64,000 bases of DNA from Flexilinea sp. (GTDB lineage Bacteria > Chloroflexota > Anaerolineae > Anaerolineales > Anaerolineaceae), in the NCBI GenBank assembly GCA_026645735.1, contig JAPKMT010000002.1:1-64000 (forward strand). Direction: 5' to 3'. Position 1 is the stretch's first letter; each line of letters opens with the position of its first letter. The position numbers and the translations under genes were made by a program. A model generated the notes under the pieces. It saw only the letters and a list, made by a program, of their open reading frames with translations, ran no database searches and was not told the origin of the DNA. Shown here one piece after another: positions 17,362 to 51,310 of the stretch.

Positions 17362-17405
17362 TTAGAGTATTTTGTAATAAATTGTACGGCGTATCTTTTT
17401 CAAGT

Positions 17406-17441
17406 AGCGATTCGAAATACAAACATGTGTTTCGAATCGCT
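17406..17441 (+). other. Perfect 12-bp stem-loop upstream of the signal-less SBP gene
   Basis: AGCGATTCGAAA-(12 nt)-TTTCGAATCGCT. Confidence 0.6.
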
Positions 17442-17493
17442 GTGTTTCAAGACGTCGACTTTTTTATAGATTATAATGATCTCAAGGTGCTTG

Positions 17494-41091: not shown

Positions 41092-41487
41092 CGATCTTTT
41101 GTCTACTCTGTTGTCACATCATTATGAAAGCGCAGAAGACGCTATTTTTTCATTAATATGATTCAACGATCTTTTCAATCACATTATTAACATTGTATTG
41201 CATGAATATTTTATTGTAATATTAATGTTTTTTTATTTATTATATATTGCTTATTATATTATAGATCAATTCAATATTATTACAATATTAATCCACTATT
41301 TATTAATAATCATTGTAGGCTTAGTAGACAAACAAATTTCTGATTTATTGAATCGATTACTTGAATTTTGAAATCGTCAATCATTGAATCGATCGTCATG
41401 TATGCTTCCAGAGGTTCGAAATAAGAAAACCTTTATTTTTCTTGTTTCAGTATTAGAAAAATTAATTTATATTTCGTTATATTTCGA

Positions 41488-43668
41488 ATGGCTGCGTCAA
41501 ATCACGCATTAAACCTCACGAATCTCATAAATGGTAAAATCAAGAGCATGACTGAGACATTACAACCTGCTGCAAAATCAGGAAAAAAATTCTTTATTTC
41601 ATATCAGGAAAGATGGATTCCAATTATCCTGCTCCTATTCACGATTTTCACCTATGTTCCACTCATCCATACACTCGGATTCTATTGGGATGACTGGCCG
41701 ATGCTGTGGTTTGATGTGACGCAAGGGCCGCAAGGCTTTGCGGATGCCTTCACTTCAGACAGGCCGTTTTTAGGGTATCTGTATCAACTAACCGGGGCTG
41801 TCATCGGCACAGAACCGCTGTACTGGCAGATGCTGACGGTCGTCTTTCGCTGGCTTGTCTCCTGCGCATTCTGGTGGATGCTGAAACTGCTCTGGCCGGA
41901 GCATAAGGAGACTTCTTTTTGGGCAGCCGTTTTGCTGACGGTCTATTCCGGTTTCAAACAGATGCCGATCGCCTATGTCTGGGGAAACGCGCTGATTATG
42001 CTGTTTGCCTATGTGCTATCCTACGGCATGATGCTCAAAGCGATTGCTTTCGCTGAAAAGGCGTATTGGAAACGGTATCTGGCCTGGACGGTTCCAGGCG
42101 TAGTCTGCTACACCTTCTGCACCATTTCCACAGAATACTATACAGGACTGGATCTTATCCGGATCGTGATGATCTGGATTTTCCTGGACCAGATCGATTC
42201 ATCCCGCAAGTTATCCATCCCAAAAAGAATTATTAAATCGCTGCTGCACTGGGTTCCGTATCTGCTGCCCTTGGCTGTTTTCATGTTCTGGCGTGTTTTC
42301 ATTTTCCAGTTTCCATCGTATCAGCCTGTTTTAATAAGTCAACTGCAAACCGAACCGTTCAGAGCAATTCTTGGCGTTCTGATCCGTGCAATCGAGGATG
42401 CCTATACAGCAACCTGGGGTGCCTGGACTGAGTTTTTCTCCTTTCCAAAAATAAACGATTTTGCCACCATTTCAGGAAAACTTTTCTGGATCTTTACTGC
42501 AGCAGGTTTTCTGCTGTCGCTACTGGCTCTGCATGGGCTTAAATCTTCCAGTTTGCAGCATCCTGATTCTGGACCGGAAAGCAAAAAAAGACAGTCCAGA
42601 TGGATCGTCAGCCTGTTTGTTTTAGGAATCGCGGCTGTGATTTTTCCCGGTCTTCCCTATTGGGTGACTTCGCTATCGCCTTCTCTGGAGTTTCCAAAAG
42701 AACGCTGGCTTTCCGCTTATATGTTTGGCAGTTGTATGCTGATAGCCGGATTTATCACTCATATCATTCGGACGAGAAAACAACAGATTGTCTTCATCAG
42801 CCTGTTCATCGCCATGGCAATCGGAGGGAACGTCCTGAATGCCAACAGTTTCCGCAGAGACTGGCAAAACCAGCGGGAATTCATCAATCAGTTGTACACA
42901 AGAATTCCCGGTTTTAGAGCGCCGATGTATCTGCTGACCGATTTCAATTCACTATCGTATGAAACGGACAATTCGCTGACTGGCATGGTCAATCTTGCAT
43001 TGGCATCAGAGTCAACGTCCTTAAATTTGCCGCTCAGCGTCGGATTTTATGATGTCCGTTTTAAGTCCTCCAATGAAAAACTGGAAGCCGGGGAACCCAT
43101 TTATCAGGGGTTCCGAAGCGCCAATTTCAGCGGCAGCGCCTCGGATGTTGTAGCCTATTTTTACTCTCCCCCTGGCTGCTTGCGCATTTTGGATCCCCAA
43201 CAGCATGAAGATCTGCCCATTTTCCCCGACAGTTTTTATGAATTCATCAAGTTCTCCAACCCGTCAAAAATCCTGTCCAGCGGCAATACGCTTCGGTTTG
43301 TGCAGGAAAAGATTTTCAAACAGCCGATTGAAGAAAATTGGTGTTATTATTTTGAATTAGCAGATTTAGCCCGTCAGAATGAAAAATGGGAAGAAATTAC
43401 AGCGCTTGGTGATCAGGCAATTCCATATTTTTCTGCAGGAGATGCATCGGAGTATATTCCCTTCATCGAAGCCTATGCGCGCCTCGATCAGTGGGAGAAA
43501 GTCATTCCGCTCATCGATCTGATCCATCAGAAAGATCAGAAACTGGATGGACCGTTGTGTCCGATTTTGCAGCGCTTGTTCTCAGAATACCTGCCGATCG
43601 ATCCATCCAATCGCAATAATGTCGCAACAGCTATCAACAAAATTGGGTGCAATGCATATACACAATGA
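41488..43668 (+). CDS. Large multi-TM membrane protein with C-terminal repeat-like region; possible polyprenyl-linked glycosyltransferase
   Basis: Continuous ORF with many hydrophobic segments and a soluble C-terminus. Start uncertain (41488 or ATG 41548). Coupled by ATGA to the next GT2 gene. Confidence 0.6.
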   Translation: MAASNHALNLTNLINGKIKSMTETLQPAAKSGKKFFISYQERWIPIILLLFTIFTYVPLIHTLGFYWDDWPMLWFDVTQGPQGFADAFTSDRPFLGYLYQLTGAVIGTEPLYWQMLTVVFRWLVSCAFWWMLKLLWPEHKETSFWAAVLLTVYSGFKQMPIAYVWGNALIMLFAYVLSYGMMLKAIAFAEKAYWKRYLAWTVPGVVCYTFCTISTEYYTGLDLIRIVMIWIFLDQIDSSRKLSIPKRIIKSLLHWVPYLLPLAVFMFWRVFIFQFPSYQPVLISQLQTEPFRAILGVLIRAIEDAYTATWGAWTEFFSFPKINDFATISGKLFWIFTAAGFLLSLLALHGLKSSSLQHPDSGPESKKRQSRWIVSLFVLGIAAVIFPGLPYWVTSLSPSLEFPKERWLSAYMFGSCMLIAGFITHIIRTRKQQIVFISLFIAMAIGGNVLNANSFRRDWQNQREFINQLYTRIPGFRAPMYLLTDFNSLSYETDNSLTGMVNLALASESTSLNLPLSVGFYDVRFKSSNEKLEAGEPIYQGFRSANFSGSASDVVAYFYSPPGCLRILDPQQHEDLPIFPDSFYEFIKFSNPSKILSSGNTLRFVQEKIFKQPIEENWCYYFELADLARQNEKWEEITALGDQAIPYFSAGDASEYIPFIEAYARLDQWEKVIPLIDLIHQKDQKLDGPLCPILQRLFSEYLPIDPSNRNNVATAINKIGCNAYTQ

Positions 43669-45343: not shown

Positions 45344-45479
45344 TATACTGCCTGGTTATCGTATCTGAGTTTCTCGAATTAGTGTCCTGGAAATTCCAAA
45401 TTTGAGCGTAAAACGTGACAATTTTTTTTTCAAAAAGTGAGAAAATCAGGTTCAAAAAAAAACTTTCGATCAGTACCAA

Positions 45480-45526
45480 TAAAAAAGCATCTCCGTTCTA
45501 TCCGAACAGAGATGCTTCTTTTTTTA
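45480..45526. terminator. Bidirectional terminator between convergent genes
   Basis: AAGCATCTC-C-GTTC-TATCC-GAAC-A-GAGATGCTT flanked by A-tract and T-tract. Confidence 0.8.
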
Positions 45527-46723: not shown

Positions 46724-46778
46724 GTTGGCTTTCGTTATATTTTCGGATTGTAAAGTTATCCAAAAATAAGCGTTGACA

Positions 46779-46806
46779 ATTATACCGCATGTTCGAACGC
46801 TGTCAA
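46779..46806 (-). promoter_or_regulatory. Consensus promoter of rplU-rpmA-rpmE operon
   Basis: Minus strand TTGACA - 16 bp - TATAAT (plus-strand ATTATA 46779-46784, TGTCAA 46801-46806). Confidence 0.75.
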
Positions 46807-46870
46807 ACAAGACGTTACGAGTTAGCAATTCAAAATATAGACCATGCGTTACAAATAGAGAGAGGAAATA

Positions 46871-46917
46871 AGTTGTTGTGGTGTATTTGCGCGAAGCGCA
46901 AATACACCACAACAACT
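46871..46917. repeat. 47-bp perfect palindrome (22-bp stem, 3-nt loop), element A
   Basis: AGTTGTTGTGGTGTATTTGCGC-GAA-GCGCAAATACACCACAACAACT. Confidence 0.95.
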
Positions 46918-46964
46918 ATTATTTTTTTCCATATTTCGAATCGTTGATTGCAAGGCAATGAATC

Positions 46965-49546: not shown

Positions 49547-49984
49547 GTCAAATCCTCCTGTTTTTTACATGAAGATTGTTCTTGATGTGCTATATCACAC
49601 AGCTATCAAAATCAATTGTCATACAACTTGAAATTATAACAAAAATGTTTGAATTTACAAGAAAACTCACGCAGTATTTGGCATTCCATATTTCGGTCAG
49701 TTGCGCATCCAATATCGGGACAAATCTGCTTTTCAATTCCTGTTTTCAAAATCATTCCTATGTTTAAGTAAAGGAATGAATCATTGAAATTTTCCATACA
49801 AAAAATATTGTCTGCATTATCCAATGTCCTGAATGAAAATTTTTGTTACCATTTATGGGAGAAACCTATTTTTCAATCTCTGTCAAAATTAGGACCAGCT
49901 TGTGAAATGAAGTGAAGTACCTTCCCGTATTTTTCAATATTGTGCTCTGATTAACCAGTAATTCAAAATATGAAAAGAATTCTA

Positions 49985-50031
49985 TGTTGTTCTTATGGTT
50001 TTGCGCTACGCGCAAAACCATAAGAACAACA
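49985..50031. repeat. 47-bp perfect palindrome (22-bp stem, 3-nt loop), element B
   Basis: TGTTGTTCTTATGGTTTTGCGC-TAC-GCGCAAAACCATAAGAACAACA. Confidence 0.95.
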
Positions 50032-50142
50032 AATTTTCTTGATTGATTCGAAAAGCCAATCCATATTGCGAATTGCTGCTGATCAACGAAATTAAAATAA
50101 AGATACAATCATAAATAGAAAAAAGATTGGCAGGAGAAAAAA

Positions 50143-51267: not shown

Positions 51268-51310
51268 TTCGAATCAATCGAGAAAATTTGATGTTCTCGA
51301 TTGATTCGAA
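51268..51310. terminator. Bidirectional stem-loop terminator between convergent genes
   Basis: TTCGAATCAATCGAGAA-(9 nt)-TTCTCGATTGATTCGAA, perfect 17-bp stem between 51216 stop and 51323 stop; U-richness weak. Confidence 0.6.

Follow-up and report, generated by a model that had tools for sequence, protein, structure and literature searches.

The 47-bp palindrome at 46871-46917 of the 64,000-nucleotide stretch of Flexilinea sp. DNA analysed here (the window) almost certainly forms the centre of a MITE, a non-autonomous DNA transposon, and its perfection is likely maintained by a mechanism that copies one arm onto the other. The MITE reading, with arm copying as its best extension, is given a joint probability of roughly 0.85. 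The element is of an ordinary kind and newly described, and its copies provide a good natural record of template switching.

Element structure and genomic distribution

The palindrome is exact, with 22-nt arms (46871-46892 and 46896-46917) that are 100% complementary around the loop GAA, just as an earlier note made from the sequence had described it. Folded as single-stranded DNA, it reached -26.9 kcal/mol (z = -12.2), a value equalled by 0 of 200 shuffles, and the hairpin structure is far above chance expectation. A second palindrome of like design is present in the window at 49985-50031. Alignment of copies with those of the sister species revealed conserved sequence on both sides of the palindrome, and most palindrome cores are flanked, about 47 and 29 bp away, by 18-bp TIRs (CAGYAATTCGAAATATGG); the modal element length is 123 bp. 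The 9 bp outside each end match at 0.59 per base, compared to about 0.27 at neighbouring offsets, and this match peaks for a length of 9 bp only, with no signal at other duplication lengths. The fixed 9-bp flank match is therefore read as a target-site duplication. The unit proposed in the earlier note thus stands as a 47-bp palindrome, but the mobile unit is 123-124 bp long. The family members in the window and the parts of element A are as follows.

46823..46946, unstranded: element A, complete MITE of 124 bp, long side left; its TIRs, at 46823 and 46946, have 3 and 2 mismatches respectively and enclose the palindrome
46814..46822, + strand: left 9-bp flank of element A, GTTACGAGT, possibly a decayed target-site duplication (5/9 match with the right flank ATTGCAAGG)
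46823..46840, + strand: left TIR of element A, TAGCAATTCAAAATATAG, 3 mismatches to CAG[CT]AATTCGAAATATGG
46871..46917, unstranded: central palindrome of element A, 22-bp arms and GAA triloop, from arm complementarity and folding
46929..46946, - strand: right TIR of element A, CAACGATTCGAAATATGG on the - strand, 2 mismatches to consensus
46947..46955, + strand: right 9-bp flank of element A, ATTGCAAGG, paired with the left flank
49956..50078, unstranded: element B, complete MITE of 123 bp, palindrome 49985-50031, long side right; TIRs with 2 and 1 mismatches, duplication CTGATTAAC/CTGATCAAC (8/9)
17405..17442, unstranded: family remnant of 38 bp, two TIRs only with the core deleted, 9-bp duplication TTTTTCAAG/TGTTTCAAG (8/9)

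Element A appears older or rearranged, since its duplication matches at 5/9 positions and that of element B at 8/9. Three other features of the window were recorded. A TIR-like end pair of 86 bp at 41409-41494 (5 and 3 mismatches) has no matching 9-bp duplication and is possibly an old deletion derivative. The near-perfect inverted repeat TTCGAATCAATCGAGAAAAT...ATGTTCTCGATTGATTCGAA at 51268-51310 resembles the sub-terminal long side of the MITE doubled head to head and has no recognisable TIRs. The imperfect hairpin at 45478-45524, which has A- and T-runs and lies between two convergent genes, is likely an ordinary bidirectional terminator.

A degenerate pattern for the core, put forward in the earlier note as a means of finding further copies, was run over the whole assembly from which the window comes (G000), and returned 272 matches at ≤3 mismatches and 0 for the reversed control pattern. 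The core was present in 4 of 121 neighbourhood genomes, all of one genus, with 272 matches in G000, 136 in Flexilinea flocculi (G010), 31 in G003 and 2 in G008, while a search of viral contigs gave no match. The intergenic bias that the same note had suggested counting was borne out: by the simple gene calls made in this analysis, about 90% of G000 copies lie outside called genes and 11 overlap them, and the 103 copies with two called neighbours fall between tandem (57), divergent (27) and convergent (19) genes. Element A itself is located between the stop of a ygeW-like gene (46965) and rplU on the minus strand, where the earlier note had placed it. A well-formed putative minus-strand rplU promoter, TTGACA-spacer-TATAAT, read by eye at about 46776-46805, lies next to element A, which is just upstream, and was left intact by the insertion.

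Other repeats were also seen in these genomes. A long palindrome unlike that of the MITE, about ATATAGGATAATAGACA...TGTCTATTATCCTATAT, occurs twice at L033:15401-15628 (G000 C11:95401-95628) and perhaps represents a second palindromic family. A further dispersed repeat, of the CATTGCGAGGAGGGCATCAGCCCGACGAAGCAATCTC type, forms an array that fills an intergenic region of G010 C2 close to the ortholog of G000 C11:111922.

Mobility and a candidate autonomous partner

The joined flanks of several copies align to the other of the two species without the element; these cases are other family members, not element A, whose corresponding locus in G010 does not present a clean empty site. For the copy at G010 C2:99913-100020, the joined flanks form a gap-free alignment of 288 bp with G000 that contains a single GATTTTTAT, and an empty site with a single GGATAGTAT was also found for the copy at G010 C2:588122-588246. 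The family appears, from these alignments, to be mobile now or to have been so until recently. Many of the G000 and G010 copies that share an intergenic region are independent insertions or uncertain, and such pairs were left out of the statistics; the reading of the G010 copy at the element-B locus as a core-less form of element B itself was rejected because its duplication differs (TGAATTATC).

A complete insertion sequence with MITE-type ends was found only in F. flocculi, as one copy (L143:821-2452, 1,632 bp), with a perfect 9-bp duplication, GCATTCTGT, on both sides and one gene of 446 aa. Neither this autonomous insertion sequence nor its transposase gene was found in the G000 assembly (92% complete, 86 contigs), from which the gene may have been lost or in which it may lie in unassembled sequence. 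The 446-aa protein scored 19.2 bits against Pfam DDE_Tnp_1, below the curated cut-off of 23, had no match in NCBIfam, and its profile retrieved nothing meaningful among solved structures. Residues D128, D216 and E344 are invariant in four homologues, are shared by three plasmid homologues, and are read, by eye, as a putative DDE triad. The Gloeothece homologue is annotated as ISNCY family, and the Calothrix homologue has the TIR CAGCAATTCTCATTTT and a perfect 9-bp duplication, GAAATATAC. That Calothrix agrees in how the TIR starts and in how long the duplication is gives independent support that this transposase family serves the MITE ends, and we infer that the MITE is moved by the putative DDE transposase of the F. 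flocculi insertion sequence or by a close relative of it.

Other candidate partners were rejected. IS256 (Transposase_mut), with 12 matches in G010 and 1 in G000, has ends unrelated to those of the MITE; a DDE_Tnp_1 match at G000 C83 belongs to a different insertion sequence without MITE ends; and a 1,556-bp TIR pair in G010 C2 is really two MITEs flanking a chloride channel-like gene. By-eye inspection of ORFs near single TIRs recognised no transposase among them.

The earlier note had named a REP/MITE-like element, and it is the MITE that holds, with its TIRs, 9-bp duplication and candidate DDE-type partner. A REP sequence mobilised by a RAYT (Y1) transposase would account for a palindromic, intergenic sequence in hundreds of copies, but TIRs and a 9-bp duplication are present, the search of G000 with Y1_Tnp gave no match where controls, E. 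coli among them, are positive, and the chance of this explanation is practically nil. The GTAG tag beside the palindrome ends (GTTGTT...AACAAC) was absent at both window cores. Recognition of the hairpin as single-stranded DNA by a transposase, also raised earlier, is not needed with the mobile ends outside the hairpin, and the palindrome is probably not the part that the transposase recognises.

Arm coupling, loop turnover and the maintenance of the palindrome

Arms were compared in 120 copies from 1.23 Mb of G000 and in 78 copies from 0.79 Mb of G010, with stem positions counted from the outside, positions 3-14 taken as mid-stem and the four positions adjoining the loop as loop-proximal. In G000, 116 arm mismatches were observed compared to 378 after random left/right re-pairing (116 copies, two subfamilies). 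Changes in the mid-stem were predominantly matched between the arms (149 matched, 27 unmatched), whereas those in the loop-proximal 4 bp were predominantly unmatched (5 matched, 63 unmatched), and G010 gave 130:54 and 22:86 for the same regions; the copies are related, so that these counts are not independent events and Fisher values on them are descriptive only. A matched change can also have come down from a source copy that already carried it on both arms, a problem that is lessened, not removed, by the positional contrast and by nearest-neighbour pairs chosen by flanking sequence, which repeat that contrast in G000. It is also found in G000 copies picked blind to the core, by TIRs, 123-bp length and duplication (mid-stem 46:5, loop-proximal 0:20). 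In the TIRs of the same copies, which lie about 87 bp apart, no excess of matched changes was found (33 observed, 43-49 expected from re-pairing). An orthologous copy (C33:48869 and L066), with flanks 98-99% identical, differs by one matched change, T:A to A:T, with the loop unchanged. As a separate observation, L066 of G010 and G000 C33:47028-51237 are 96% identical over 4.2 kb, compared to mostly 80-88% elsewhere where the species were compared, possibly reflecting a recent exchange.

The GNA loop pointed out in the earlier note is present as GAA in element A but is not general to the family, in which nearly every loop triplet reads NNA on one strand (GAA, AAA, GGA, AGA, TAA, GTA), with TCA also seen. 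Loop orientation is even relative to the long and short sides of the element (51:45 and 28:28) and, by a gene call covering 74% of the DNA, relative to tandem transcription (21 same, 23 opposite). Among nearest-neighbour pairs, the loop was shared in 3/35 and inverted in 8/35. Turnover of the triloop is fast.

Derivatives that lack the palindrome but have recognisable duplications are common as well, with 33 short vs 68 full-length copies in G000, and 28 vs 45 in G010. Because their junctions differ, these derivatives resemble products of later deletion and are of little use for judging mobility. The varied junctions fit hairpin-driven deletion of the core, and an SbcD match was present in all four genomes tested.

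These patterns suggest a mechanism in which, during replication, one arm would fold into a hairpin and the polymerase would copy one arm onto the other via an intra- or inter-strand template switch, thereby transferring a mid-arm mutation to the opposite arm and often inverting the loop. Bases adjoining the loop would anneal, prime the switch and stay uncorrected, while the mid-stem would be rewritten and the outer end would be mixed; the same hairpins would drive frequent deletion of the core. Each of these steps is deduced from the sequences of the copies. An elevated mutation rate at the tip of the hairpin could account in part for the unmatched changes adjoining the loop.

Selection on an RNA hairpin, for mRNA processing, stability or termination, would also preserve pairing, and the long, perfect stem and intergenic location are in keeping with it. 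The loop-proximal pairs, however, are the most important for folding and the least maintained here, the opposite of what folding selection predicts, and on the transcript strand G.U mismatches, which RNA selection would favour, are hardly commoner than A.C (54 vs 48). An Rfam search of the window gave no match. At element A, the stem is not followed by a U-tract in the ygeW direction, and the earlier note was right that an ordinary terminator fits poorly. Its suggestion of an mRNA processing site for ygeW fares no better: a terminator or processing role is not supported, as the U-tract is absent, copies occur between divergent genes, and loop orientation is independent of transcription. Selection for an RNA hairpin is accordingly considered highly improbable. 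Arm-to-arm templating during replication fits better, since the mid-stem is matched, the loop-proximal pairs are unmatched, the TIRs are uncoupled and the loop occurs in both orientations.

The finding that G000 copies are mostly perfect or one mismatch off could alternatively reflect a filter at transposition, by which only copies with perfect hairpins transpose well and no copying between arms is needed. Such a filter should not spare loop-proximal mismatches, and the orthologous copy changed symmetrically in place, which makes this explanation unlikely. Returning to arm copying, we lean, on balance, towards a fuller picture of a transposon family whose core palindrome would be remade without pause by template switching, so that several hundred insertions would each serve as a natural replicate that records priming (the loop-proximal 4 to 7 bp), copying (about 12 bp of mid-stem) and the frequency of loop inversion. 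The loop in this picture is rapidly remodelled yet limited to triplets whose last base is A, and these would give a stable fold.

Significance and comparison with known systems

It is common practice to treat paired substitutions in a stem as proof that an RNA structure is under selection. Many copies of this genomic parasite carry such changes, bear the positional signature of DNA templating and give no hint of selection on RNA; they are a warning to users of covariation methods and a set on which to calibrate these. The family also offers natural data from which template switching and the loss of palindromes by deletion can be measured. No description of this family, or of any MITE in this bacterial group, was found in the open-licence papers searched.

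The bacterial MITEs Correia elements, RUP and Nezha are tied to IS630-like elements with TA duplications. The Flexilinea element is like bacterial MITEs in being short, non-coding, intergenic and of high copy number, with TIRs, a target-site duplication and the ends of a full insertion sequence, and differs from these three in its 9-bp duplications, ISNCY-type ends and 47-bp near-perfect palindromic core. The ISNCY-annotated cyanobacterial insertion sequences of Gloeothece and of Calothrix plasmids resemble the F. flocculi partner in their transposase (35-38% identity), TIR start CAGCAATTC and, in Calothrix, 9-bp duplication, whereas the MITE has no gene and only the ends in common with them. 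Copying of one arm onto the other, as a mutation process, is known mainly from laboratory reporters. REP and REPIN sequences with RAYT (PMC3733652, PMC3116915) are likewise palindromic, intergenic and present in hundreds of copies, but no Y1 transposase was found in the genome of the Flexilinea MITE, and outside its palindrome the MITE carries TIRs and a 9-bp duplication. When a polymerase switches template at an imperfect palindrome, the arms become perfect and the spacer can be inverted (PMC8604942, PMC7202029). The same process has been put forward as a source of RNA hairpins and as a means of keeping them, and inverted loops are seldom seen in rRNA (PMC8794818). Quasipalindrome correction and template-switch mutagenesis (PMC7202029, PMC8604942, PMC8794818) share with the present family the homogenisation of arms and the inversion of the loop, and the Flexilinea case differs in being deduced from natural copies of one sequence, hundreds in number, which give a profile along the stem and a loop orientation that is fully scrambled.
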